Source: a virus
Reading direction: 5' to 3' (one strand)
Virus record (IMG/VR): IMGVR_UViG_3300022932_000021
Coordinates: 1 to 37,042 of that record
DNA: 37,042 nt
In this document: in pieces, positions 1,452-25,966 of the stretch
Layout: each line of letters opens with the position of its first letter
Numbering within the stretch: the first letter of the stretch is position 1
The notes under the pieces: generated by a model
The model's input: only the letters and a program-made list of their open reading frames with translations
Databases searched by the model: none
Told to the model about the DNA's origin: nothing
Position numbers and translations under genes: made by a program

Positions 1452-4184
1452 TTACCGTCCATTGTTTTCATCCTGACCCTGGGCAGCAGCGCGCGTTGGT
1501 GATTGCGCGATGGCCTGCTGGAGGAAGTCGCGGATCGGAATGATGTCGGCAGAGATGGACGGATCGCGGGTGGCGAGTGAACCTAGACGATTAACCCAAG
1601 CCTGCGCGCGGGAAGGGTCGTTCGGCGCACGAGCCAGCCAACGGGTAAACCGCGGTGACGCCAGGACACGGCCAGCAACGCTTTCCGCAACCGCCGATAG
1701 CCCCATCGTCGCCAGCCCCATGCCATAGGACATAGCGCGCGCCCGCTCGGAGACGTTGATAGCGCCGCCGCTGTTGGAAGTGTTGGCAAAGCGCTGCGAC
1801 TGGCGGGAGCCGCCCGCAACCCGAACCAAATCCTCAATCGCCGCACGATTTTCACCGCGAAACAGCGCCCCTCTTGAACGCTCTGGAAGCCTGTCCCAGT
1901 TGGTCAGGAATGTGCCAAGCGAAAAACCATCACCGGCTGCATTCTGTTGGCCATTAGAAGCACGGCCCAGATCGGCTATGACCGATCCCCGGACCATGCC
2001 CGCTTCCTGCGGGGACACGCTATTCAAGAAACGCGAGAAGTTTGCGCTGTCGCCACGACTCATGGCGATAAGTTTGTTTGCAACACCTTCAGCCGACCGC
2101 TGATCGCTTGGCCCGAGAATCTGGTTCATCGTGCGATCGATCGTTTCCAAGCGGATACGATAACGATTGTCTTCCGCCCTGAAGGCAGCACGCGCTTCCG
2201 GATTCAGACCGTTGGCGATGTCGTCTCTCAAATCGGTCAGAACCTGATTGGCACGCCGCTGGTAATCCGTCCCGCGCAAACCTTCCGTGCGCGCCTCAGC
2301 GGCCAAAGCGGTGCGAAGGCGACGGATGGAATCAATGTTAAGCGGACGCAGCCCGCTTTCGTCGGCGATGACATTACGAAAGCGTTCCAGACCAGCAATC
2401 AAAGGCCCTTCGACTTCCGCTGTAGGCGATAGCTCGCGAAGCTGCTGGTTGAGGTTTCGGAAAGCTCGGGGCGCGCGCAGAATCTCGTCTTGGGAGAGTT
2501 CACGCGCACGCCCGTAACCGGCGCGGGCGACTTCCCCACTGGTGTCGATATAACCCTGTGCAGCCTGCCGGGTGCGTTCACCAAGCTGCTCTTGGCGCAA
2601 CGGGTTGCCCTCGGACTGCGCAATCTGCTGAACGCGGTTACCGACTTGATCCGTAACCTCTTGGGCACGGTTGATGATCGGAGCACCACCGAAGGGCGTC
2701 TGGGCAAAGCCAGAAGTCACCCGCCTTGTGGTTGGTCCGCCGACATCCGCAGCCAGCGGAACAATCCCCTGCCGTTCAGCAGCCTGCATGACCTCTTGCC
2801 CGGCAGTAGGAGGCCCAGGTGGGCGTTGGCGAAGAAGCCGCCCCGCCGCACCCCCCACCGCAGCGCCTAGGACACCCTGTCCAGCAGCACCCAGGAGGCG
2901 ATCACCGACAGAACCGTCAGTCGAGCCAAAACCGTAGGCCGCGCCATAACCGCCGCCAAGCGTTGCCAGTTGCCGCGCGGTGGTTGCTCCACCTGTGGGC
3001 AAGGCAAAGCCTCCGGCGATCTGGCCTGCGATACGGGGAATGGGATTATTTTGTTCGTCGAACGCATCGATGGCCCTTTCACGGCGCAGGTTGTCATCCA
3101 TCGTGCCGCCGCTGAACACCGTCTTCCCGGCCGCACTGATCTCGTCCGCAAAGCCCAGCGACACGGTATCCGCCACGCCGCGCAGGGCGGGGTCCACGAT
3201 TGCCTCACGACGCGCCGCCTGCTCTTCCGGCGTCAGCTGCCCCGCATCCGATTTGGCATAGTCGATGCCGCCGATCGGCTGGCCCTTGGCGGCTGCATCG
3301 GCGATTGCCGCGGCGCTCTCAGGCGTCAGGCCCCCGAAGCCCTTGCCCGCAAACCAGCCGGACAGCGCATCGGCGGTCGGCTTCGTCGCCACGAACGCGC
3401 GCAGTTCCTTATCCTGCTCCGGCGACAGGCGCGGCCCGGGAGCGTTGGGCGTGTCAAAGCCCATGACGGCTTCTTCGTCCGCTGCCATGCCCGGCGTTGC
3501 AGCCTGTGGGTTGCGCCGCTTCTGATATTCCTGGATGACAGGCATGAACGCATCGCCGTCATGCTGGCCGATGACACGAACAGGATCGATCCCGAACGCC
3601 TTGGCGTCTTCTTCGAAGCGCGACCGCTGGACCTTGTAGATTTGGTTCAGCTGCGCGACCTTGTTGCCCATTTCGCGGCGCAGGCGTTCGCGGATTTGCG
3701 GCGACAGCTGCCCGCCGCCCTCAATGCCGAACTGCTTCTTCAGGCCGGCAACGGACGATTCCACGAACGATGCACCGGACGCGGCCATGCCCATTTCGGA
3801 CTCGCGCACGACAGAGCCGGGATCCATGGCCTTGGCATAGGCGTAGATCAGTGCGTTATCGCCTGTCGCGTCGTCCTTCGTGCGCAAACCCGTCGCAAGC
3901 TGCGAAATGGCCGTGCGATATTCCTTGACAGCGGGCAAACCGTCATAGTCGTCCTTCAACTTCTGGACGTTGTTGAAGCTCTGCGTCTCGTTCTGGCGTT
4001 CCATCGCCTTCGTCTGACGGTCCGCGGAGTCGATCGCGCGCATCTCGGTCCGTCCCGCGCGCTCTTCCCGAGCGACCGCCAACGGATCGGGGGCCTTCGC
4101 ACGCCCCGGGATAAAGCCGGGCACCGCTGCTTGCGGCGCGGCCTGCGGCTGGCTCCAGTCCATCTCCCACGGATTCGTCGCCAT
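1452..4184 (-). CDS. Large internal virion / DNA ejection protein, 910 aa
   Basis: Very long, mostly helical protein with a proline/alanine-rich start, charged helices around residues 60-230 and a glycine/alanine-rich hydrophobic stretch near 385-450 (QIAGGFALPTGG, LGAAVGGAAGRLL). Long amphipathic helices follow to the end. A giant protein with one glycine-rich, membrane-compatible segment, placed after two smaller ejection-type genes and before the tailspike, fits the internal core protein that podoviruses eject into the cell envelope. The ATG overlaps the upstream stop as TAATG and has AGAGGGA about 9 bases upstream. No transglycosylase or protease motif was recognised. The exact family is not certain. 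Confidence 0.8.
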   Translation of the reverse strand: MATNPWEMDWSQPQAAPQAAVPGFIPGRAKAPDPLAVAREERAGRTEMRAIDSADRQTKAMERQNETQSFNNVQKLKDDYDGLPAVKEYRTAISQLATGLRTKDDATGDNALIYAYAKAMDPGSVVRESEMGMAASGASFVESSVAGLKKQFGIEGGGQLSPQIRERLRREMGNKVAQLNQIYKVQRSRFEEDAKAFGIDPVRVIGQHDGDAFMPVIQEYQKRRNPQAATPGMAADEEAVMGFDTPNAPGPRLSPEQDKELRAFVATKPTADALSGWFAGKGFGGLTPESAAAIADAAAKGQPIGGIDYAKSDAGQLTPEEQAARREAIVDPALRGVADTVSLGFADEISAAGKTVFSGGTMDDNLRRERAIDAFDEQNNPIPRIAGQIAGGFALPTGGATTARQLATLGGGYGAAYGFGSTDGSVGDRLLGAAGQGVLGAAVGGAAGRLLRQRPPGPPTAGQEVMQAAERQGIVPLAADVGGPTTRRVTSGFAQTPFGGAPIINRAQEVTDQVGNRVQQIAQSEGNPLRQEQLGERTRQAAQGYIDTSGEVARAGYGRARELSQDEILRAPRAFRNLNQQLRELSPTAEVEGPLIAGLERFRNVIADESGLRPLNIDSIRRLRTALAAEARTEGLRGTDYQRRANQVLTDLRDDIANGLNPEARAAFRAEDNRYRIRLETIDRTMNQILGPSDQRSAEGVANKLIAMSRGDSANFSRFLNSVSPQEAGMVRGSVIADLGRASNGQQNAAGDGFSLGTFLTNWDRLPERSRGALFRGENRAAIEDLVRVAGGSRQSQRFANTSNSGGAINVSERARAMSYGMGLATMGLSAVAESVAGRVLASPRFTRWLARAPNDPSRAQAWVNRLGSLATRDPSISADIIPIRDFLQQAIAQSPTRAAAQGQDENNGR

Positions 4185-4447
4185 TACATCGTCCCTCTGC
4201 GGCCATAGAGCGGCACGCGATTATATCCGGGCAAGGTCACATGGACGTGATCGCCTTCGTTCAGCAGACGCGCCCCCGGCCCGAAATACTGGCGCAACTC
4301 GTTCGCGGTTGTCCCGGCATAGTCAACCCCGTCGCCGCGAAGATGCGAACTGTTGGGCACGCCGCCGACAGCACGATTGCCCGCGACCGTGCGCCGCCCG
4401 CTGGTCATCGTGCCGGGAGCTTTGAGGGGGTCAGGGAACGAAGCATT
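4184..4447 (-). CDS. M15-type zinc peptidase domain, probably made as a +1 frameshift extension
   Basis: The reading frame encodes a compact M15 (VanY/D-Ala-D-Ala carboxypeptidase-like) domain: an SxHxxGxxVD motif ([12 protein letters not shown]) and a downstream HxH ([12 protein letters not shown]), the expected zinc ligands His, Asp and His plus a nearby Glu. Counting from the first ATG (at 4408), these are H22, D29, E51 and H56 of 74 residues, short for a stand-alone M15 enzyme. That ATG has no Shine-Dalgarno sequence. The frame is open back through 4447, exactly where the upstream gene stops at CCC-TAA; slipping by one base would attach 87 residues. The likely role is peptidoglycan cleavage during DNA entry. 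Alternatives are a weakly started free protein or a sequencing/mutational frameshift. Confidence 0.7.
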
Positions 4448-4454
4448 AGGGAAA
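4446..4454 (-). promoter_or_regulatory. Candidate +1 ribosomal frameshift site (TTT CCC TAA)
   Basis: In the frame of the 234-residue gene the final codons are TTT CCC TAA. A prolyl-tRNA on CCC can re-pair with CCT after a one-base forward slip while the stop codon waits in the A site; CCC-U with a slow or stop codon next is a known +1 shift context, for example in Listeria phage PSA. The new frame enters the M15 domain directly. An AAGGGGG tract lies about 10 bases 5' of the CCC, a spacing more usual for -1 than +1 stimulators, so its role is unclear. Confidence 0.5.
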
Positions 4455-5150
4455 CGTGGCACCCCCTTGCGGGGATGCACCTCCCTGCGCCGGAACCCAG
4501 CTTGCGCGGTCCTTCGGATTGCCGCCCTGATAGCGATAGCCACCGACCACAGTACCCGGAGCGGGGCCACCCGCCGCCGCAGCCTGTGGTTGCCCCCCCG
4601 CGACCTGCGCCAGCGCATTCGGATCACGCACGTTGACCACGCCGCCCTCGCCGACCGCGATATACTTCGGCTGCTGGATCTCCACGATCTTTTCGCCGAC
4701 CCCGAACTGCGCAGCCGCGGCGCGCAACGTGTCCTCGCTATATTGCCCCACATACTGAGCGGCTTCCGGAAAACCCTCGCTTGCCAGTTTCTGCGCGAAC
4801 TGGTCCCATGCAGCTGGGCGCTGTTCGGCCGGCAGCGCCGCGATCTGGACAAGGTAGTTCCCCGCCAGTGAGTTGCGCTGTTTCACCCGGTCCTGCTGCT
4901 GGTCCTGTTCGAACTTCTGCATTTGCAGCTGCTGCGTGCCCTGCTGAAGCTCGTACGCGCGGTCGCGCTGCTGGATGGCCATGCCGGTTTCGGGCGATAC
5001 CGCGGACAAACGTGCCAATGCTTCGGCGTTAGGGCTGACGGCATATTCCGACAGTGCCCGGCGCGTGTCATGCTCGCGACGGAGCGACATGCCCTGCTCT
5101 AGCAGCGCAAGCGAGTTGACGGGGCGGATCTGGCTGAAGTCGGCGGTCAT
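4446..5150 (-). CDS. Ejection / internal virion protein, 234 aa
   Basis: Starts [17 protein letters not shown]; the ATG overlaps the preceding stop as ATGA, which is preferred over an in-frame start 33 bases upstream. The middle (about residues 70-105) is a glutamine-rich helix ([18 protein letters not shown]), and the C-terminal 50 residues are Gly/Ala/Pro-rich, like a flexible linker. Helical, Q-rich proteins between two other ejection genes resemble podovirus internal virion proteins, but no specific domain is recognised. The gene ends TTT-CCC-TAA, and the next frame (+1) encodes an M15 peptidase domain, so this protein may exist in a short form and a long, peptidase-tailed form. Confidence 0.8.
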
Positions 5151-5857
5151 ATCCACGATCCATATTGCGTGGGACGTTCCCAAATCGGCTGCTGGCGCGG
5201 CGGTATCTGCGACTGCGGCTGATAGCTCGAACCAAGCGCATACCCGCCCGCCTGTACAAGCTGGCCAAGCGCGTTGCTGAAGTTGTTGCCGTTGGCGATC
5301 GCCGCATTGCCCTGCACCGTGGCGAGGTTCTGGGACGCCATGTTCTGCGTGTTGACGTTGTTCTGGCCAATGCCTGCCACCAGCGACCGCGCATTGGCCC
5401 CGCCCGCGCTGACGCCGCCAAGCTGGCCGATGTAGCGCCCGAACTCGTCCGAAGCGATGTTCTGCCCGAACGACGTCAGCGCCTTCAGCGTGGCACCGCT
5501 GTTGCCCATGCCGCGCGCATAGGCGTTTGAGTTGATCGCGCCCGTTCCCTGCCCGACGCGAAAGTCATAGCCCGTCGAGCCGCGATAGGCATCGAACCCC
5601 TGCTGCGCCGCCGCCGTGTCGCCGCCCAGATTGAGCAGCGCCGCAATGCGGCTGTCGGCGTCCAGCCCCCGATTGATGACGGGGGAGTTCAGGTTATACT
5701 GATAGTCCCGGTTGGCGTTGGACGCTGCGATCTGCTGCGCGCTGGCGTTCGCCTGCGCCTTGCTAGCCTTGCTCGTGGCCTTGGCACCGATAGCCGCGCC
5801 GCCGACTGCGCCCGCCGCCGCGATACCGCCCGCAATAAGTGCTGTTGCAATCGCCAC
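5147..5857 (-). CDS. DNA transfer / ejection protein, 236 aa
   Basis: Begins with a hydrophobic Ala/Gly helix (ATALIAGGIAAAGAVGGAAI) that could insert in a membrane, then Ala/Gln/Asn-rich helices. The central stretch ALLNLGG...GFDAYRGSTGYDFR...GAINSNAYARG resembles the phage DNA transfer protein family seen with P22-like tails (family recognition from memory). It probably sits inside the capsid and leaves with the DNA. Start is GTG, with AGGAG 8 bases upstream, just after the acetyltransferase stop. The end overlaps the next gene as ATGA. Confidence 0.82.
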   Translation of the reverse strand: MAIATALIAGGIAAAGAVGGAAIGAKATSKASKAQANASAQQIAASNANRDYQYNLNSPVINRGLDADSRIAALLNLGGDTAAAQQGFDAYRGSTGYDFRVGQGTGAINSNAYARGMGNSGATLKALTSFGQNIASDEFGRYIGQLGGVSAGGANARSLVAGIGQNNVNTQNMASQNLATVQGNAAIANGNNFSNALGQLVQAGGYALGSSYQPQSQIPPRQQPIWERPTQYGSWI

Positions 5858-6833: not shown

Positions 6834-8162
6834 CTACTTCCACCCCTCGTTCATCAACGCGCCGGACAGTCGCACCTTTACGGGATCGTTGCAAACGACC
6901 TGGAACGAACGCATCGGCTGATCCGGAATGCCCAGCCGATACAGGTTCACGATGTCATAAGGCGCGCGCGCTTCCAGTTCCTCGTAATAGTCGGGGAACT
7001 CGTCGCGCCCATCCTTCCACCGCACCTTCAGCGTGAAGTCAGCCGACGAGCCCGTCGCGATCGTGAAACTGTCCTGCCGCCCCGGTCGCGACGGCACAGG
7101 CACGTTCGCGGTGGCCATGCACGTAAACGCCGTGTCGTCGTCGCGAGCGATGTCCGGATCCAGCTTCCACAGCGCACCGATGCCGCCCGCCATCGTGCCT
7201 GCGCTGTCGGTGTGGCCAACGCGCGCCATCCACATATCCGAGTCTTCGCCGAACTGCGACCATTTGCCCGTCGCGGCGTCGAAGGCGAACGTCCCATGCG
7301 ACGGGATATTCAGCACGTACAGCTTGTGCCCGTCCGTGTCGGCTTCCCACGCGTTGATGAACCCCGCGCGGCTGCGGATCCGCTCCTCGATGCCATGCTC
7401 GGACACGCGCTGCGGCACCGCGCCCCCGCGATAAACCACGGCATCGTCGCCGACCCACAGGACCGAGTTGTCGAAGCGCCGGACCGTATCGCGCGCAAGG
7501 CACCCGCGATCGTACATGCGCCCCGCTGCCCGCTGGAACGGGGCCGCAAGATCCCCCGTCGTCTGCCACGGCTCGATCGTGTCCGAACCGAACATCCACA
7601 CTTCATCGCCGACGCGGCGGACAGCGACGATGGCGTCCAGTTGGCTTTCGGCGGTCGCGAAGTTCAGCGGATCAAATGCCGTCTGCCCCGGCTCCAGCCA
7701 ATAGAACCGCCCGTCCGGACAGCCCGCAATCAGATAACCGTTCAGCGTGTCTATATCGGTGCAGATGCGCCCGTCCGGCATTGCCACGGTTGCATAGGCG
7801 GTGCCGTTCCAGGACATGATGACGCCGCCGCCAAGCACGAACACCCGATCTACCGCCGTGGCGAAGGCGGTCAGGTCGTCGCCCAGCACCACGCCCTTGC
7901 TGGAAAAGGCGTTGGTGAACACGTTGAACTGCGTGTCCACGACGACGAAATACGCGCCACCGAGGAAGCCCGGCTGGCGGTGAATGCCCCGCGCCGTGCC
8001 CGCGACGATGACGCGCGACAGGCCCGGGCGGCTGATCCGCATGAAGTTGTCCGGGGACGCGCCGGACTTGTCTTCTTCAAGCAGCAGGTTGCGAAGCTGG
8101 ACCTCCGGTTCGAACCCGTTAGCGCGCTTGTAGGATTCGAGGCCGAGGGGAATGGCGGGCAT
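6834..8162 (-). CDS. P22 gp10-like packaged DNA stabilization protein, 442 aa
   Basis: Start MPAIPLGLESYKRANGF fits the beginning of the phage stabilisation family (P22 gp10, PF11134). Repeated blade-like segments follow (YFVVVDTQFNVF, DRVFVLGGGVIMSWNG, DGRFYWLEPGQTAFDP, GDEVWMFGSDTIEPW, NSVLWVGDDAVVYRG), a beta-propeller-like pattern. In P22 this protein closes the connector below gp4 to hold packaged DNA and joins the needle. The ATG overlaps the upstream stop as TAATG, so a longer frame beginning 120 bases upstream is rejected. Gene order with gp4-like and portal genes supports the call strongly. Confidence 0.88.
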   Translation of the reverse strand: MPAIPLGLESYKRANGFEPEVQLRNLLLEEDKSGASPDNFMRISRPGLSRVIVAGTARGIHRQPGFLGGAYFVVVDTQFNVFTNAFSSKGVVLGDDLTAFATAVDRVFVLGGGVIMSWNGTAYATVAMPDGRICTDIDTLNGYLIAGCPDGRFYWLEPGQTAFDPLNFATAESQLDAIVAVRRVGDEVWMFGSDTIEPWQTTGDLAAPFQRAAGRMYDRGCLARDTVRRFDNSVLWVGDDAVVYRGGAVPQRVSEHGIEERIRSRAGFINAWEADTDGHKLYVLNIPSHGTFAFDAATGKWSQFGEDSDMWMARVGHTDSAGTMAGGIGALWKLDPDIARDDDTAFTCMATANVPVPSRPGRQDSFTIATGSSADFTLKVRWKDGRDEFPDYYEELEARAPYDIVNLYRLGIPDQPMRSFQVVCNDPVKVRLSGALMNEGWK

Positions 8163-8542
8163 TATGTGATCCGATAAATGGAAACCGGGATCGTATAGGT
8201 CACACCGATGCCGAGCAAGGGCGTGTAATAGCCGACTGTCACGTTGCCAGCAGACGCGGGATAGACGTTGACCATTTCGCAACCCGTCGTTGGCGCACCG
8301 TTCGGGATCGCCACCAGCCTGTCGCTAGTCGCGATCCCCGCCAATGGCCGGACCATGCGCTTCATGCCCACAGACAGCGACACCAGCAGGGTTTCGGTGA
8401 CGATCACATCCCCGACATAGACCAGACGCCCGGTTGTTGGGGCTGCAGCCCCGGTTGCGCCTGTAGCGCCGGTTGCCCCTGTGGCCCCCGCCTTCCCCCT
8501 TGGCCCGCGCCGCCCGGCGCTGGTGGACTTGGTAACGGGCAT
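8162..8542 (-). CDS. Collagen-like repeat virion protein, 126 aa
   Basis: After MPVTKSTSAGRR comes a run of about seven Gly-X-Y triplets (GPR GKA, then four GAT, GAA), a collagen-like triple-helix signature, then a beta-rich C-terminal domain of about 95 residues ending VSIYRIT. Collagen-like segments in phages usually form trimeric stalks or fibre shafts, so a small trimeric tail or capsid appendage is likely. The start overlaps the preceding stop as TGATG. The Shine-Dalgarno signal is weak, consistent with coupling. Confidence 0.78.
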   Translation of the reverse strand: MPVTKSTSAGRRGPRGKAGATGATGATGATGAAAPTTGRLVYVGDVIVTETLLVSLSVGMKRMVRPLAGIATSDRLVAIPNGAPTTGCEMVNVYPASAGNVTVGYYTPLLGIGVTYTIPVSIYRIT

Positions 8543-8901
8543 CAGGAACCGGACCCGTAGATCAGCTCCACCCACGTCTCCGCAAACGAGAAGTCGTTGC
8601 CGTCGTCATCCTTCAGCGGGCGATTGGGCATGGCAAAGGCTTGCACCGATACGCTTGTCGGTTTCTGCGTGGTGAATGGACCAATCATGGAAAATGGCTC
8701 CATCGGCCAGCCAGTTGTGCGCGTTACGGGCGTGAACGCCTGCGAGTCATTAAATCCCTTCAGCCGAACAAAAAACGGGTTCGGATTGTAGAGCATAAAA
8801 GACGCCACATTCAATGGCAGCGTAATAGGCGCAGGCGTTGAACCGCTAGTGGGACTAACGGGGATCGGCGAAGGATCCCCCATGCGGAAAAACGTACTCA
8901 T
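8542..8901 (-). CDS. Small virion protein, 119 aa, unknown
   Basis: MSTFFRMGDPSPIPVSPTSG opens a proline/serine-rich lead, then a strand-rich body with MLYNPNPFFVRLKGF and a C-terminal ETWVELIYGSGS. It lies in a run of four small beta-rich proteins between the gp4-like and gp10-like genes, and its start overlaps the upstream stop as ATGA. The neighbouring genes suggest a neck or tail surface component. No family was recognised. Confidence 0.72.
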   Translation of the reverse strand: MSTFFRMGDPSPIPVSPTSGSTPAPITLPLNVASFMLYNPNPFFVRLKGFNDSQAFTPVTRTTGWPMEPFSMIGPFTTQKPTSVSVQAFAMPNRPLKDDDGNDFSFAETWVELIYGSGS

Positions 8902-12706: not shown

Positions 12707-13183
12707 TTATCCGAGTTCACGCAATACCCAAGAAACGCCTCTTCTGATGCGGTTCACCTGGGGTTTGGAAAGATCGAAAGCCGCCATAAGCCATGCAGTG
12801 GAGCGATCCGAAGTCCGGATGAACTCCGAGTCATGGGCGGTGATTTTCGCGCGGCTGTTGCGTTCCCCGCGAACCCTGCCGCGCTCGACCTTGTCTTGTT
12901 CGTTTTCGACTGCACTCCCCCAGCGCAAATGGTCCGGGTTGCAGCAGGGTGGATTATCACAAGCGTGAAGACCGCAAAGATCGGCGGGCATATCGCCCGT
13001 TTTCAGGTAAAGGGCTACCCTATGCGCCCTGAAGCTGGAACTCTTAATATGGAATATGCCATAGCCTCGCTTCGTGCGGCCACCATGCCATTCCCAGCAT
13101 TCACCCAAAGGCCGATGGGGTAAATACGCCCAAAAGCGCTCGATTGCGCGAGCGTCAAAACATGTTAATGATGGCTTAGCCAT
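12707..13183 (-). CDS. HNH homing endonuclease, 158 aa
   Basis: Classic HNH_3-type free-standing endonuclease: CWEWHGGRTKRGYG (residues 29-42), AHRVALYLKTGDMP, then the HNH core LHACDNPPCCNPDHL with His73, Asn82 and His85 plus paired cysteines 75/80/81, and NEQDKVERGR. A C-terminal helix-turn-helix-like segment (AWLMAAFDLSKPQVNRIRRG) probably recognises DNA. GGAGG sits 6 bases before the chosen ATG. It interrupts the portal-scaffold order of the late operon and is bounded upstream by a strong hairpin, as expected for a selfish insertion. Cleavage target unknown. Confidence 0.9.
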   Translation of the reverse strand: MAKPSLTCFDARAIERFWAYLPHRPLGECWEWHGGRTKRGYGIFHIKSSSFRAHRVALYLKTGDMPADLCGLHACDNPPCCNPDHLRWGSAVENEQDKVERGRVRGERNSRAKITAHDSEFIRTSDRSTAWLMAAFDLSKPQVNRIRRGVSWVLRELG

Positions 13184-13208
13184 TGCGAACCTCCATTCGC
13201 TGGTTAGA

Positions 13209-13240
13209 GACGAGGCAGGCGCTTCCAACGCCGCCTCGTC
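13209..13240. other. Strong hairpin between portal and HNH genes
   Basis: GACGAGGC and GCCTCGTC are perfect 8-base arms, extended inward after a one-base bulge by GGCG/CGCC, around a 7-base loop. In the minus (transcribed) sense it is followed by TCTCTAACC rather than a U tract, so it is an imperfect intrinsic terminator at best. It may insulate the HNH gene or act in mRNA processing. Confidence 0.55.
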
Positions 13241-18311: not shown

Positions 18312-20720
18312 TTATTCCTCCAACATGCCGATAATGCTCTGACGGGCGGCTTCGCGGCGCTGTCGCTCGCTTTCCGCCCGCCCTTCGAACGCCGAATGCA
18401 CCGCATCGTTGACGATCCATGCCGTAGTGTCCGAACGGAGCGAAGCTTCTTCCAGCCACCCGAACGCCACCATCTGTTCGAATATGGCCCTGCCTTCGAA
18501 CTGTGTGAGCCTCCGCATCTTGGTGGAACCACGCGCCAGGGTGCGCAGCGTGACCTTCTCCAGACGGTGCGACAGGATGAACCCGGCGACGTCGGCGATA
18601 ATCTCGTGATCGTCCGTCAGGCCCGCGACATTGGTGTAGAACGCCAGCGCATGACGCCGCAGGAACCTATGCAGGAAGTCGGCTGCGCGCTTGGCTGTGG
18701 CGAACGTCAGGACGCTTGGTAGCGGCTCCTCGGGCTTGTCGGTGACGTGCTCGATGCAATGGAAGATAAGCGCCAGCCTGCCGAACAGCCCGTCATATTT
18801 GCCGATGTGAGAGGCGACCTTGCGGTTCACGCTTTCCATCGTCGACATCATGTCGAGATGCTGCCGGGACAGCGCCGATCGTAGTTCCTGAGCCTCGTCC
18901 GAGAACTCGACGGGCTGAACACCAAGGAACGACTGCGGCGGCTTCAGCGCCCATAGCTTGTCCAGGATGGCTTCATATTCCTGCACCACGTCCGGCATTT
19001 CGATGTCTACGTCGTGGCTTGGCTCACCGAGCATGATCGGCAGAAACCGCTGGATAAGGCCGTCGTCCGACGATTCCGCCATGATGCGGCGGATGGGATC
19101 GGGCTGGACGCCGCCGACGATGCTGACGGACAGGTTGTCGACATACTCCGCCTTGCGGCCCACCCGATCGATCGCGTAACCGCTGCCGTTGAACGCCTGC
19201 AGCCAGAAGGCGCGGTCCTTTGCGCCGCCCTTGCCGCCGCTATACTTCTCGATGCCGCCGAACCAGCCGGACAGCTCGTCCTGAAGGCCCAGCACCCCGT
19301 CAGGGTTGTGAGCGCAGACTTCGGCGGCGGACTCCATCGTGATATCCGAAATGCGAAGGCGATGCGGGACGGGCGGTGCGCCGTTCTTGCCCGCCTCCAG
19401 CCAATCCTGCTGCTCGCGTTTGTGCTCTGCCATCAGCCCGATATCCAGCTTCGAAATGTGGCTGGTGGCGGAGCGAATGATAGGCGTCTTCTTGCGGCTG
19501 GGATCGCCGACCAGCATCACCCACAGGCGCGCTTCCTCGAACCATGTCGGGTCATGCCGCTTCATCTTCAGGCGGATGGTGTCGCGGATCATGACGCCGC
19601 AGGATGCCAGCGCCGCGACCGCAAGCCCGGAAGGATCACAGCCGACCATCTCGCCGCGGATCTTTGAGAAGCGCGCGATGAGCGGCGGCAGAAGGTGTTC
19701 GGGAAACGACGGTGCAGCCGTGCGCGCCCACAGGTCCAGCGGGCCGGACTCGCGCTCTTCATGCTTGGCGGCTTCTTCCTTGCGGCGGGCGAACGCCGCC
19801 AGCCCATCCAGCAGGGTACGCGCGACCGCCTCTGAGCCTGCTTCCTGCTGCTGGTCGTTGAAGTCGCCTTTCGCAACCTTGGTGACCGGCAGGATAACCG
19901 GGCAATCCAGTTCGGCCCCCAGCGCCTGGAAATGCGCGGCCTGGTCGACGTCCGGCGCAAGCACGATCGGCACGCCATTGGCCGCAAACTGCCGCGCCAC
20001 CTTGTCCATGTTGCCGGCCGAAAAGGTGACGACCACCTGATCCGGCATGGCGTTGTAGATGCTGACGCCGGTGGCGACACCTTCGCAGATGATGCTGCGG
20101 CCCATGTGGATCCCGATATGCATCCGCGCGCCGCCGACCGGTGCCCCTGAGTGAAACAGCTTTCCGCCATCGGCGTCGATCGCCTGCACGGACATGATCT
20201 CGCCATCGGCGTCATACATCGGGAACAGCAGCGACTGTCCTTCGCGGCGCGCGATCGCCAGATCCTCGACCAGCTCACCAATGCCCTTGCGGATCAGATA
20301 GGGATGTCCGGCGTCGGCGCGGATGGCGCGCTCCCACCGCGTTGCCGCCTGTGCCGTTCCGCGTTCCTTGCGGTCGCGCTCTTCGGCTTCGCGCTGTTCG
20401 GCCAGCTTGTTGCGCTCTTGCCGGACAGGTTCGGAAATCGTGACGACCTTGCCGCCGGTCAGCGCGTTGATGGCTTCGGATTTGGTGTCAAAGCTGTGGA
20501 TGGCCTGTACGAAGTCGATCACATCTCCATGCGCGCCGCAGCCCTGACATTTGAACTTGCCTTTCGCTTCGTTGACCATGAACGAAGGCGTCTTCTCCAG
20601 ATGGAACGGACACAGCCCCGCCCATTCACGGCCAACGCGCTTCATCTTCACATGCCGCTGGACTTCCTCCAGCAATGGATATTGCGCCTGTATGGCGGTG
20701 AAGTCGTGGCGCGCGGGCAT
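18312..20720 (-). CDS. Primase-helicase: CHC2 zinc finger, Toprim and DUF3987, 802 aa
   Basis: Replication initiation protein in three parts. A CHC2 zinc ribbon: CPFHLEKTPSF with Cys37 and His40, then FKCQGCGAHGD with Cys58 and Cys61. A Toprim primase core: IICEGVATGVSIY (Glu213) and VLAPDVDQAAH (Asp257, Asp259). The C-terminal ~450 residues follow the DUF3987 pattern with a Walker-like GDPSRKKTPI (405-414) and GVLGLQDELSGWFG, an ATPase often replacing a separate helicase in phages. ATG overlaps the HTH stop as TGATG, preferred to a GTG one codon earlier. It should prime and unwind phage DNA; no phage DNA polymerase is seen, so host polymerase is probably recruited. Confidence 0.92.
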   Translation of the reverse strand: MPARHDFTAIQAQYPLLEEVQRHVKMKRVGREWAGLCPFHLEKTPSFMVNEAKGKFKCQGCGAHGDVIDFVQAIHSFDTKSEAINALTGGKVVTISEPVRQERNKLAEQREAEERDRKERGTAQAATRWERAIRADAGHPYLIRKGIGELVEDLAIARREGQSLLFPMYDADGEIMSVQAIDADGGKLFHSGAPVGGARMHIGIHMGRSIICEGVATGVSIYNAMPDQVVVTFSAGNMDKVARQFAANGVPIVLAPDVDQAAHFQALGAELDCPVILPVTKVAKGDFNDQQQEAGSEAVARTLLDGLAAFARRKEEAAKHEERESGPLDLWARTAAPSFPEHLLPPLIARFSKIRGEMVGCDPSGLAVAALASCGVMIRDTIRLKMKRHDPTWFEEARLWVMLVGDPSRKKTPIIRSATSHISKLDIGLMAEHKREQQDWLEAGKNGAPPVPHRLRISDITMESAAEVCAHNPDGVLGLQDELSGWFGGIEKYSGGKGGAKDRAFWLQAFNGSGYAIDRVGRKAEYVDNLSVSIVGGVQPDPIRRIMAESSDDGLIQRFLPIMLGEPSHDVDIEMPDVVQEYEAILDKLWALKPPQSFLGVQPVEFSDEAQELRSALSRQHLDMMSTMESVNRKVASHIGKYDGLFGRLALIFHCIEHVTDKPEEPLPSVLTFATAKRAADFLHRFLRRHALAFYTNVAGLTDDHEIIADVAGFILSHRLEKVTLRTLARGSTKMRRLTQFEGRAIFEQMVAFGWLEEASLRSDTTAWIVNDAVHSAFEGRAESERQRREAARQSIIGMLEE

Positions 20721-20899
20721 CACGCCACGCGATCCTTCGCGAAGTAATCAGAAAGCGCCTTCACGACCCGAAACGAAGGGTCACTGGTCTTGCCGTCGCG
20801 GATAGCCGCAATGGTGTTGTGGTGAACGCCGGTCGCCTCGGAAACGATCGGGATGCGACGATCCGTCAACGCCTCTTTGATCTGTTCGATTGTGAGCAT
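20720..20899 (-). CDS. Small HTH regulator, 59 aa
   Basis: MLTIEQIKEALTDRRIPIVS followed by EATGVHHNTIAAIRDGKTSD, a Cro/CI-type helix-turn-helix (recognition helix around HHNTIAAIR) and a short C-terminal helix. Length is typical for compact phage Cro-like proteins. AGGA lies upstream of the ATG; longer frames into the divergent control region are rejected. It is co-transcribed with the primase by overlap and diverges from the recombination operon, with a perfect palindrome in between, so it probably represses itself and/or the plus operon. Confidence 0.85.
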   Translation of the reverse strand: MLTIEQIKEALTDRRIPIVSEATGVHHNTIAAIRDGKTSDPSFRVVKALSDYFAKDRVA

Positions 20900-22537: not shown

Positions 22538-22708
22538 ATGGATGACGACCAACTGTGGAGGCTCCGTGGCATCTACACGCAAGTTTGTGCGGCGGAGCAA
22601 GACATCGTTTTTGCTTTGGCAGACCGCAGGTTAACGGATAGCCGAAAGCGTGATCTGGTTCGCCGGTTGGAACATCTGATTGATCAAATCAAAGGCGAAG
22701 AAGCATGA
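22538..22708 (+). CDS. Small helical protein, 56 aa, unknown
   Basis: MDDDQLWRLRGIYTQVCAAE then QDIVFALADRRLTDSRKRDL; helical and charged, with no known domain. The start is set by GGAGG 5 bases before this ATG rather than an in-frame ATG four codons earlier. It overlaps the YqaJ start as ATGA, so it is part of the recombination operon and could be a small cofactor of the nuclease. Confidence 0.68.
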   Translation: MDDDQLWRLRGIYTQVCAAEQDIVFALADRRLTDSRKRDLVRRLEHLIDQIKGEEA

Positions 22709-23574
22709 CCGCCCCCCAACGCTCCCCCGAATGGCACCAGCAGCGCAAGGGCCGGGTGACCGGCTCGGTGGTCGGTGCGATCCTTGGCCTGTCCCCATAC
22801 ATGACGCGCGATGACGTACTTCGCAGCATGGTCCGTGCGTCTCTGGGGGCACCCAGCGAGTTCACCGGCAATGTTGCGACGGCATGGGGCACTGCTATGG
22901 AACCGCAGGCGATCCTGGACTTCGAGATGGAGACGTCCGAAAGTGTGACGCCTGCGCCGTTCGTAAAATATCACACGTGGCTAGGCGCGTCGCCTGACGG
23001 CTACGTCAGCGATGGGCGGTTGATCGAGGTAAAATGCCCCTACGGCATTCGGAACGACCCCAATCCCATTTTCAAGAGCGCAGACGACCAACCGCATTAT
23101 TTGGCACAGATGCAGGTGCAGATGATGGTCACTGGCAAAACGTCGTGCTGGTTCTACCAGTGGACGCCGCACGGTTCTTCGCTGAAGCTGATTCACCGCG
23201 ATGACGATTGGCTCGCCTCCAACCTCCCACGCCTCCACCAGTTCTGGGCAGAGCTGCAAGATGCGATCGCCAACCCCGAAGAACACCTCTCCCCCCGCCG
23301 CGTCACGATCGACACGCCGGAAGCGGCTCGGATGATCAGAGAATATGTCGAACTAACTGAGGCCATTGAACGCGCCACCGAAAGGAGGAAGGACCTTCTG
23401 TCCGAAATGGTCGCGCTCGCAGGGGAGCGGAACGCGGACTTCGGGGGGCGCAAGCTGACGAAGACCGAGAAGGCGGGGGCGGTGTCTTATGCTTCTGTGG
23501 TGAAGGCGAAACTGCCGGGGCTGGATCTAGAGCCGTGGCGGGGGAAGCCGTCGAGTTTCTGGGGGGTGCGGTGA
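22705..23574 (+). CDS. YqaJ / lambda-exonuclease-like recombination nuclease, 289 aa
   Basis: The N-terminus SPEWHQQRKGRVTGSVVGAI matches the WxxxRxxxiTaS motif of YqaJ/lambda Exo nucleases; AWGTAMEPQAI gives the conserved Glu66; WLGASPDGYV gives Asp98 and LIEVKCPYG the catalytic E-V-K (Glu108, Lys110). QPHYLAQMQVQMMVTG follows as the typical QvQ helix. These are PD-(D/E)XK residues. It should resect one DNA strand for the Sak4-like annealing partner. Length is normal and overlaps join it to both neighbours. Confidence 0.93.
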   Translation: MTAPQRSPEWHQQRKGRVTGSVVGAILGLSPYMTRDDVLRSMVRASLGAPSEFTGNVATAWGTAMEPQAILDFEMETSESVTPAPFVKYHTWLGASPDGYVSDGRLIEVKCPYGIRNDPNPIFKSADDQPHYLAQMQVQMMVTGKTSCWFYQWTPHGSSLKLIHRDDDWLASNLPRLHQFWAELQDAIANPEEHLSPRRVTIDTPEAARMIREYVELTEAIERATERRKDLLSEMVALAGERNADFGGRKLTKTEKAGAVSYASVVKAKLPGLDLEPWRGKPSSFWGVR

Positions 23575-24182
23575 TGCGCGTCGAAACGATCGGGAATGCT
23601 ACGCTTTATCTTGGGGACTGTCGCGACATCCTGCCGACGCTCGGTAAGGTCGATGCAGTGGTGACTGATCCGCCTTATGGGATTGGCATTGCCGCCAATC
23701 CGGTTCGGCAATCGCATGAAAAGATGACGTGGGATGCGTGCCCGCCGGATGATGATTTGATGGCTCTTGTTGTAGCCGCTGGCGAGTGGGCAATTGTGTG
23801 GGGCGGTAACTATTTCAATCTTCCTCCCGCGCAATGCTTCCTCGTGTGGGACAAACTACAACCGCATGATTTTTCGCTCGCGATGTGTGAGCAGGCGTGG
23901 ACCAACGTTCGCAAGCCCGCAAAAATGTTCCGTTACTCGGTTACAAGTTACGAGAAAGAGCATCCTACACAAAAGCCCGATCCGCTGATGAAATGGTGTA
24001 TAAGTCATCTTCCAGCAACAGTTAAGACAGTCCTAGACCCCTTTATGGGCAGCGGCACCACCGGCGTTGCCGCCGTCCAGATGGGCCGCACCTTCATCGG
24101 CATCGAGCGCGAGCAGTCCTATTTCGATATCGCCTGCCGCCGCATCGAAGATGCCCAGCGCCAAGGCTCGCTGTTCGGATGA
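23574..24182 (+). CDS. DNA methyltransferase, beta class (N6-adenine or N4-cytosine), 202 aa
   Basis: Motif IV DPPYG (32-36) precedes motif I DPFMGSGTTG (155-164), the order of beta-class amino methyltransferases (N6_N4_Mtase). HPTQKP (130-135) is the usual motif X part. DPPY favours adenine N6 but does not prove it. The protein is compact with little room for a target-recognition domain, so the recognition site may be short. Start MRVETIGNATLYLGD overlaps the exonuclease stop as TGATG. No cognate restriction enzyme is beside it; it may protect phage DNA or time replication/packaging. Confidence 0.92.
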   Translation: MRVETIGNATLYLGDCRDILPTLGKVDAVVTDPPYGIGIAANPVRQSHEKMTWDACPPDDDLMALVVAAGEWAIVWGGNYFNLPPAQCFLVWDKLQPHDFSLAMCEQAWTNVRKPAKMFRYSVTSYEKEHPTQKPDPLMKWCISHLPATVKTVLDPFMGSGTTGVAAVQMGRTFIGIEREQSYFDIACRRIEDAQRQGSLFG

Positions 24183-25966
24183 CCTTCACCCCCAGAGGAT
24201 ATCAGCAAGCAGCCATCAACGCCGCCATAGACGAACTGCGCCGCACCACCGATCCGATCCTGATCGAGGCGGCGACTGGTGCGGGCAAGTCGGTGATCGT
24301 CGCTCACTTAGCAAGGCATCTGCACACCGTCAGCCAGGGCAAGCGGGTCCTGTGTCTCGCTCCGTCAAAAGAACTGACGCTGCAGAACGCCGCCAAGATG
24401 AAGGCAATCGGTGAACGGCTGTCGATCTTCTCCGCCAGCGCGGGCGCGAAGTCGACACGCCACCCGATCGTTTTCGGGACGCCGGGGACGGTCAAGAACG
24501 CCATCTCGCGCTTCACCAACGGCGATTATTGCGCGGTCATCGTTGACGAGGCGCATGGCATAACGCCGACCATCCGCGCCATCATCGAGGCGATGCAGGC
24601 GACCAACCCGCGCCTGCGCGTCATCGGCATGACCGCCACACCTTTCCGTCTTGGGACCGGCTACATCTACCGCCAAGGTCCGGACGGCCGGGTGAACGGT
24701 GACGACACCTGTCGCGAACCGTTCTTCATGAAGTCCGTGGCCCGCATCGGCGCGCGCGACCTGATCGAGCAGGGCTATCTTACACCCCCCATCATCGGCA
24801 CCCATGAAGAAGGCTATGACACGTCCGGGCTGATCCTGAAGCCCAACGGGCACTTCGACGACGCCAGCGTGGACGCGGCATTCGTCGGGCATGGCCGCAA
24901 GACCGCCACCATCGTTGCGGACGTGGTGCGGCAAGCCGCGGGCAGGAAAGGCGTTGTCTTCTTCGCCGCCACCATCCAGCACGCGCAGGAGGTACTGGCA
25001 TCGCTGCCGCCGGAGAAATCAGCGATCGTCACCGGACAGAGCGCGGATCGTGCCGGAGCCTTGGCGCGTTTCGATCGCCAGGAGATTAAATACCTCGTGA
25101 ACGTCAACGTGCTGACGGTCGGCTGGGACGCTCCGCATGTCGATGTGATCGCTATCCTGCGCCGCACCGAAAGCGTGGGGCTGTTGCAGCAGATCATCGG
25201 GCGGGGGCTGCGGACCAGTCCGGGCAAGGACGACGTGCTGATCCTCGACTATGCCGCCAATCTCGAAACGCACTGCCCCGATGGCGACCTGTTCAGCCCC
25301 ATCGTGAAGGCACGCGGTGCGAAGGAAGGCGGTGGGGCCGTGCCCGCGGAATGCCCGTCCTGCGGCTATGCCAACGAGTTTTCGTTGCACCCGAATGCTG
25401 ACGGCTACCAGCTGGACGCCAACGGTTATTGCGTGGACGTGTGGGGCGCGCGGATCGAGACGGACTTCGGGCCGCTGCCGGGCCATTACGGCCGGCGCTG
25501 CCTGGGGCTGGTGCGTGTGGGCGCGGTGCACGAACGTTGTGCCTACCGCTGGACGTCCAAGCCCTGCCCCGCCTGTGACGAACCGAACGACATAGCGGCG
25601 CGCTATTGTAGTAGCTGCAAAGCGGAGATCGTGGATCCCGGTGAAAAGCTGGCGGTGGAGTTCAAAGCGTTTAAGCGCGACCCCACCCAGCCCCAGACCG
25701 ACACCATCCTGAGCATGGACGTGAAGGAGTCGGTGTCGCAGCGGGGGAACCCGACCGTTAGGGTGGATTTCAAAACGCCTTACCGGCAGTTCAGCGTCTG
25801 GTTTTCACCGGAGTCGCAGCACGCACGCCCGCAGAAAGATTGGCAACGGTTTGAGGAAGCCCGCAAGCACGGTCAGCCGGAGACGGTTTCGTATATGAAA
25901 GAACGCGATAGTCAGTTCTACCGCGTGCTTGCATACGGGCAGCCGATAGATGAGATTGCCGCATGA
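24179..25966 (+). CDS. SF2 DEAH helicase with zinc ribbons, 595 aa
   Basis: Superfamily 2 helicase: ATGAGKS (32-38, motif I), DEAH (123-126, motif II), GMTATPFR (motif III, about 150-157), VLTVGWDAPHVD (motif V) and QQIIGRGLRTSPGK (338-350, motif VI). C-terminal to the core are CPSC (392-395) and CPACDEPN...CSSC (463-480), probable zinc ribbons, then a beta-rich domain of about 90 residues. The architecture resembles phage UvsW/SSL2-like helicases that act in recombination or origin melting. It overlaps the methyltransferase and VRR-NUC genes by ATGA, so all are one operon. Confidence 0.93.
   Translation: MTFTPRGYQQAAINAAIDELRRTTDPILIEAATGAGKSVIVAHLARHLHTVSQGKRVLCLAPSKELTLQNAAKMKAIGERLSIFSASAGAKSTRHPIVFGTPGTVKNAISRFTNGDYCAVIVDEAHGITPTIRAIIEAMQATNPRLRVIGMTATPFRLGTGYIYRQGPDGRVNGDDTCREPFFMKSVARIGARDLIEQGYLTPPIIGTHEEGYDTSGLILKPNGHFDDASVDAAFVGHGRKTATIVADVVRQAAGRKGVVFFAATIQHAQEVLASLPPEKSAIVTGQSADRAGALARFDRQEIKYLVNVNVLTVGWDAPHVDVIAILRRTESVGLLQQIIGRGLRTSPGKDDVLILDYAANLETHCPDGDLFSPIVKARGAKEGGGAVPAECPSCGYANEFSLHPNADGYQLDANGYCVDVWGARIETDFGPLPGHYGRRCLGLVRVGAVHERCAYRWTSKPCPACDEPNDIAARYCSSCKAEIVDPGEKLAVEFKAFKRDPTQPQTDTILSMDVKESVSQRGNPTVRVDFKTPYRQFSVWFSPESQHARPQKDWQRFEEARKHGQPETVSYMKERDSQFYRVLAYGQPIDEIAA

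Follow-up and report, generated by a model that had tools for sequence, protein, structure and literature searches.

The window analysed here, a 37,042-nucleotide (nt) stretch of viral DNA comprising positions 1 to 37,042 of IMG/VR record IMGVR_UViG_3300022932_000021, carries on its minus strand a gene encoding a protein of 234 amino acids (aa) that ends ACG TTT CCC TAA, and, in the +1 frame entered at this end, an intact M15 peptidase domain. It had been proposed from the window alone (hereafter the original prediction) that a programmed +1 ribosomal frameshift appends the peptidase to the upstream product, a protein of the ejection module, and this proposal is strongly supported by conservation, since the +1 relation occurs at 66 of 76 loci. 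The features of the site are as follows.

4446-5150, minus strand: zero-frame gene (5150-4446), 234 aa, the short form, in the position of P22 gp20; homologues of the zero-frame protein stand upstream of the M15 domain in all relatives, and the gene is flanked by a phrog_598 gene and a 910-aa gene
4480-4484, minus strand: GGAGG, an internal Shine-Dalgarno-like element (GGAGG in 64 of 65 and CGAGG in one of 65 +1 loci)
4459-4478, minus strand: hairpin of 8 base pairs (bp) with a GCAA loop (GCATCCCC GCAA GGGGGTGC), 1 nt past GGAGG and 4 nt before TTT (folding, covariation, covariance model)
4451-4454, minus strand: predicted shift site TTT C, where P-site TTT would re-pair with TTC (TTTC in 64 of 65 and TTTT in one of 65 +1 loci)
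4446-4448, minus strand: zero-frame stop TAA, the second codon past the slip codon (reading-frame inspection)
4184-4453, minus strand: +1 frame, a 14-residue linker and the M15 peptidase domain, its TAA overlapping the ATG of the next gene (PF08291 match, AlphaFold2 model)
4322-4345, minus strand: first two predicted zinc ligands, of the motif H-x6-D, with His at 4345-4343 and Asp at 4324-4322 (H38 and D45 of P0001, invariant)
4241-4249, minus strand: HVH, containing the third predicted zinc ligand (H70 and H72 of P0001, invariant)

The ATG at 5150, overlapping (ATGA) the stop codon of the preceding gene, is the best start for the 234-aa gene. Its product has a helical N-terminus and a C-terminal linker rich in Gly, Pro and Gln. 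The arrangement at the 3' end is as the original prediction described it: the gene closes with TTT-CCC-TAA, the zero frame stopping at 4448-4446, while the +1 frame is uninterrupted from TTC (4453-4451) to the TAA at 4186-4184. The sole +1-frame ATG between the slip site and the domain, at 4408, indeed lacks a Shine-Dalgarno sequence, and lies immediately 5' of the first conserved motif, TSGRRT. The peptide that had been given directly after the site, by contrast, had to be corrected to a different 15-residue stretch.

That the +1 frame encodes an M15 zinc peptidase with all its ligands was borne out by the family match, the predicted fold and the invariance of the ligands. The domain matches Pfam PF08291 (Peptidase_M15_3) with E=1.9e-7, above the family cut-off, and the +1 frame of the window contains the M15 motif S-x-H-(x6)-D...G-D-x-x-H, the predicted ligand residues being invariant across 65 M15 sequences. 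An AlphaFold2 model of the domain built with 65 sequences has a predicted local distance difference test score (pLDDT) of 89. In the PDB, the zinc DD-peptidase 1lbu is the best relative both by sequence (E=7.6e-4) and by fold (top match, probability 1.00), although the fold match has E=0.038 and a query TM-score (TMq) of 0.54. The domain is short, at about 75 residues, and its residues suggest peptidase activity on peptidoglycan. Three relatives contain an extra domain of about 90 aa (ending ...EYLPQ) between the shift cassette and the M15 domain, approximately at L048:3700-4170, L056:3720-4190 and L072:3680-4160, for which a Pfam search returned no match.

Relatives were collected by protein-pattern scans, which yielded 38 and then 80 viral loci, together with 15 genome loci; 75, from viral contigs and Sphingomonadales prophages, were kept in which a close M15 homologue lies behind a homologous upstream protein, giving 76 loci with the window. 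Relative to the upstream gene the M15 frame is +1 in 66 of these (among them L072, despite its extra domain), -1 in three (L040, L044 and L058) and in frame in seven (L048, L054, L056, L062, L095, L096 and L123), and the +1 relation also occurs in isolate genomes of Sphingomonas, Sphingobium and Sphingopyxis. Past the shift the M15 frame reads F-P/A-D-P...APG-x-M-TSGRRT, in which F and DP are nearly invariant, and conservation in this frame (F, FxDP) starts precisely at the slip codon. The measurements of the signal given below cover 65 of the +1 loci.

In the window the slips CCC to CCT and TTT to TTC yield an identical peptide, and the original prediction had chosen the former. A +1 shift by CCC-to-CCT slippage beside a stop codon would resemble that of Listeria phage PSA, and shifting of this kind at CCC UGA is documented in Listeria phages (PMC5009743). 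The window does present CCC TAA, and CCC is the A-site codon at 34 of the 65 loci. The remaining 31, however, have CGC (21), CGT (4), CCG (2), CTC (2), CCA (1) or TGA (1). Sites among the relatives include TTT CGC TGA, TTT CCG TGA, TTT CGT TGA, TTT CCA TGA, TTT CTC GGC and TTT CCC AGA, at which a CCC-to-CCT slip is impossible or no stop follows; moreover, in-frame CCC T also occurs elsewhere in these genes, even within the hairpin. Several loci lack a nearby stop, and TTT is the element common to all the loci, making slippage on CCC highly unlikely. Thus, of the expected conservation of CCC-TAA and of the overlap, the overlap in the +1 relation is kept in most relatives, but CCC is found in only 34 of 65 and the stop is not always adjacent.

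Since the A-site codon and the stop both vary while TTT C is common to the loci, slippage most likely takes place at the P-site TTT (TTT C to TTC). TTT, the rarer synonym, accounts for only 20% of Phe codons in these genes, yet is effectively fixed here. Elsewhere in the genes in-frame TTT C occurs 17 times in 16,285 codons, including in the gene of the window, each time without the GGAGG-hairpin. The codon following the A-site codon is TGA in 46 loci and a sense codon in many others, and in L074, L079, L081, L087, L089, L090 and L097 the zero-frame stop lies several to more than 20 codons away. A stop codon as an obligatory signal is ruled out by those loci in which it comes many codons later. 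Nevertheless, the codon after F has T in its third position in 50 of 65 loci, compared with about 15%; as this T creates the stop, prompt termination of the short form appears to be favoured, though it is not obligatory.

The main signal of the shift lies upstream, in elements that the original prediction did not notice; its frame arrangement for 4184-4462 stands, but the upstream limit does not, as GGAGG and the hairpin (4484-4459) extend beyond 4462. In all 65 +1 loci GGAGG (CGAGG in one) and TTT are separated by 22, 25, 26 or 28 nt, with distinct spacers in 58 loci. The spacer forms a hairpin of 6-9 bp and 16-23 nt that in nearly all loci begins 0-1 nt after GGAGG and finishes 4-5 nt before TTT, such that a change in spacer length alters the hairpin while the flanking distances stay nearly fixed. 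The weakest hairpins, those of L073 and L077, have interrupted stems. GGA is likewise a rarer synonym, at 11% of Gly codons in these genes, yet is effectively fixed at the site; in L099 and L130 GGAGG is held in a different codon phase, and it is therefore conserved as nucleotides.

Evidence that the hairpin is maintained as structure comes from several tests. The mean minimum free energy (MFE) is -13.5 kcal/mol, with a mean z of -2.7, and when arms were exchanged between loci the observed pairing was never reached in 2000 permutations. In an alignment of 31 loci sharing one register, seven pairs are 98.2% standard with 66 double changes, a level attained in none of 500 shuffles, and slid controls of the same alignment are about 40% paired. 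It should be emphasized that these 31 loci were selected by register and are thus a somewhat favourable subset, a selection from which the arm-exchange and MFE tests are free. A covariance model of the signal gave its top match at the site in nine of nine host genomes (loci in training), and recovered L048, L056 and L072, which lay outside the training set, with E=6.6e-6 to 7e-4; on the window, itself in the training set, model R1 matched 4446-4486 with E=1.4e-5. Over the distant M15 loci (L014-L038, L102-L119 and L133-L134) it found only a weak match in L028 (E=0.16), and a search of Rfam found no such family. GGAGG and the covarying hairpin thus represent conserved stimulatory signals of the kind expected of a programmed +1 shift. 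The site is not of the prfB type: there a Shine-Dalgarno sequence precedes the slip codon by 3 nt and the A site holds UGA, whereas the spacing here is 22-28 nt and only L101 has an A-site UGA.

It could be argued that the M15 domain is a separate gene translated by termination-reinitiation, with GGAGG as its Shine-Dalgarno sequence and the hairpin bringing this sequence near the start. GGAGG is a good Shine-Dalgarno sequence, genes of the module overlap and may be coupled, and at 24 of the 65 loci an ATG lies in frame no more than 18 nt from TTT. No such ATG exists, however, in the other 41; five loci have no ATG, GTG or TTG between the slip site and TSG, the M15 frame of L100 has none anywhere before TSG, and the only start past the slip in the window (ATG 4408) is 72 nt from GGAGG. 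In addition, the M15 frame is conserved (F and DP) ahead of the candidate ATG, and a separate gene would leave unexplained both the invariant TTT C (64 of 65) and the in-frame fusions that have the same residues. We consider independent initiation extremely unlikely.

The in-frame fusions bear on a further explanation, namely that the two frames are normally joined in a single gene, which in the window has been broken by a mistake in sequencing or assembly or by a recent, inactivating indel. The unshifted fusion that the original prediction had named as a sign of an assembly error or mutation does exist at seven of the 76 loci (L048, L054, L056, L062, L095, L096 and L123). The same +1 relation is found, however, at 65 other loci, isolate genomes included, and neither the site-specific codon conservation nor that of the RNA structure would follow from an error; the probability of this explanation is negligible. 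Indeed six of the seven (L048, L054, L056, L062, L096 and L123) retain the whole cassette of GGAGG, hairpin and TTT with unchanged spacing, and each of them has a stop in the +1 frame 2-3 sense codons past the site. The equivalent early stop in the M15 reading was found in 9 of the 65 +1 loci (Fisher's exact P about 3e-5, computed by hand and uncorrected for relatedness). Because the cassette is kept and the +1 frame stops early, the six loci suggest that the roles are exchanged there, the peptidase form being made by default and the short form by the shift; they look like reversed versions of the system and not like proof of an error in the window. In the seventh, L095 (3960-4010), GGAGG is present in an in-frame fusion and TTTC stands in a different phase (CCT TTC GCC), which may represent a decayed or a -1 version of the cassette.

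The three -1 loci, L040, L044 and L058 (site at 4001), carry the heptamer T TTC CCG, with GGAGG 24 nt away, and no longer have the hairpin (-3 to -6 kcal/mol); their protein architecture is that of the +1 loci, with the opposite direction of shift. Loss of the hairpin fits published work in which a hairpin 5' of the site promoted +1 shifting and reduced shifting to -1 (PMC6321510). Indifference to the direction of the shift, or to in-frame encoding of extensions, is already known (PMC5009743). A relative of the upstream protein of L058, at L180:2501-2650, ends ...KYLKGQ-stop over the ATG of the next gene without an M15 domain, and the domain is therefore dispensable in some lineage.

Taken together, the evidence makes it very probable that the gene at the gp20 position of a P22-like ejection module is subject to programmed +1 ribosomal frameshifting, with UUU as the slip codon, a 5' stimulator, and a 321-aa peptidase-bearing minor form as its product. 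In the scheme we infer from the comparison of loci, most ribosomes would stop at TAA to give the 234-aa protein, while a fraction would slip +1 with UUU in the P site, where the transfer RNA (tRNA) for Phe, tRNA-Phe(GAA), would re-pair from UUU to UUC; the shifted ribosomes would read the linker and the M15 peptidase, producing the 321-aa fusion. The stimulator would lie wholly 5' of the site, as GGAGG followed by a hairpin whose 3' edge is next to the ribosomal E site. On leaving the E site the hairpin could re-form and, with GGAGG bound to 16S ribosomal RNA, strain the P-site pairing and bias the ribosome forward. The role of the fusion may be to place sub-stoichiometric, virion-borne copies of the peptidase in the ejected conduit, where they would open peptidoglycan during DNA ejection.

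Several points weigh against this interpretation. About 25 nt separate GGAGG from the shift site, compared with 3 nt in prfB (PMC5009743), so the hairpin would have to bridge the gap, and when 70S ribosomes were assayed in published work, hairpins drove +1 shifting only in the absence of release factor 2 (RF2) (PMC6321510). The A-site codons are common ones (CCC, CGC), so that the slip has no hungry-codon explanation. Furthermore, the relation is in frame at seven loci and -1 at three, and the loci share kinship, so the counts do not represent independent events.

The genes on either side place the site in its module.

5147-5857, minus strand: upstream gene, 236 aa, DNA-ejection family, in the position of P22 gp7 (phrog_598 'DNA ejection', E=1.1e-20)
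1452-4184, minus strand: next gene, 910 aa, in the position of P22 gp16 by position only (phrog_13634 and phrog_5880, function unknown)

Near the site the order is head-closure protein (phrog_578), DNA-ejection protein (phrog_598), frameshift gene and 910-aa gene, with the portal, major head protein and terminase located farther upstream. In gene position, the frameshift gene corresponds to P22 gp20. The 234-aa protein had no family match in Pfam or PHROG, and neither a search of a phage collection nor peptide patterns run over viral contigs returned anything; a whole-protein model of one in-frame relative was poor (pLDDT 63). Judged by its portal, the closest named phage is Pseudanabaena phage Pam1 (38%). 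As its relatives occur as prophages in Sphingomonas, Sphingobium and Sphingopyxis, the virus probably infects a sphingomonad. The family of loci is one of short-tailed phages and prophages of Sphingomonas-type bacteria. Elsewhere in the window an HNH_3 endonuclease gene, possibly for a homing endonuclease, adjoins the portal gene (12707-13228, minus strand); YqaJ recombinase, N6/N4 DNA methylase and helicase genes are consecutive (22705-25966, plus strand); an 803-aa CHC2-Toprim-DUF3987 primase-like protein is encoded at 18312-20723, on the strand opposite to the YqaJ row; and a short open reading frame (8162-8575, minus strand) matches collagen-like tail-fibre families weakly.

Virion genes of phages are already known to use programmed +1 shifts, Listeria phage PSA being an example (PMC5009743). 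Upstream hairpins and internal Shine-Dalgarno duplexes beside the E site stimulate +1 shifting on 70S ribosomes, stable hairpins in this position reaching about 60% of prfB-type Shine-Dalgarno activity in E. coli extracts lacking RF2 (PMC6321510). Programmed +1 shifting is thus not new in itself; in the open-access literature, however, we found no report of the GGAGG-hairpin signal, of an ejection protein as target or of a natural +1 site with a stimulator composed of a Shine-Dalgarno sequence and a hairpin, and the composite 5' signal and its target are apparently undescribed. On balance we favour the view that they represent an undescribed class of bacterial +1 element, in which a Shine-Dalgarno sequence is held near the P site by a hairpin of variable length, acting on UUU C with no need of a stop or rare codon, and which determines what share of the ejection protein carries the peptidase; in a minority of the phages the frames would be exchanged, with the peptidase form made by default and the short form by the shift. 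If so, nature would provide, in about 58 distinct variants, a widely conserved +1 frameshift whose stimulator lies entirely 5' of the site, a mechanism for which engineered hairpins have so far been the main means of study. It would also mean that phages can dose a peptidoglycan-cutting enzyme inside the ejection machinery through recoding, and would explain why annotation pipelines would overlook the peptidase in these prophages or call it a separate gene.

At the influenza PA-X site, UCC UUU CGU, tRNA-Phe slips +1 from UUU to UUC before a codon starting with CG, as proposed here. PA-X differs in being decoded by the eukaryotic ribosome, and a stimulatory signal is not evident there (PMC5009743). 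The prfB (RF2) site shares with the present one a +1 slip of the P-site tRNA on a UU-rich codon (CUU U in prfB, UUU C here) and an upstream Shine-Dalgarno-like stimulator, which enhances the prfB shift at its 3 nt spacing (PMC5009743). The prfB element lacks a hairpin, depends on an A-site UGA and serves autoregulation, whereas here GGAGG is about 25 nt away, a hairpin intervenes and the stop is often distant or absent. In Listeria phage PSA +1 shifts likewise add C-terminal extensions to virion proteins (cps, tsh), presence in the virion being predicted for the system described here; PSA, however, slips on CCC, its stimulator is a 3' pseudoknot or a stop codon, and its extension is not an enzyme (PMC5009743). 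Synthetic refolding hairpins on 70S and 80S ribosomes, and the attenuator hairpin of severe acute respiratory syndrome coronavirus (SARS-CoV), are similar in that a hairpin just 5' of the site promotes +1 and attenuates -1 shifting (PMC6321510; PMC5009743). The 70S/80S hairpins were engineered, in contrast with the natural, conserved element found here, which is joined to a Shine-Dalgarno sequence and is lost in the three -1 loci. The ejected proteins T7 gp16 and P22 gp7, gp20 and gp16 form a trans-envelope conduit, and T7 gp16 is a virion-borne lytic transglycosylase (PMC8954989), to which the purpose of the fusion may be comparable. In T7, however, the enzyme is in frame in every copy, while here the M15 peptidase would be added by frameshift to the gp20-position protein.

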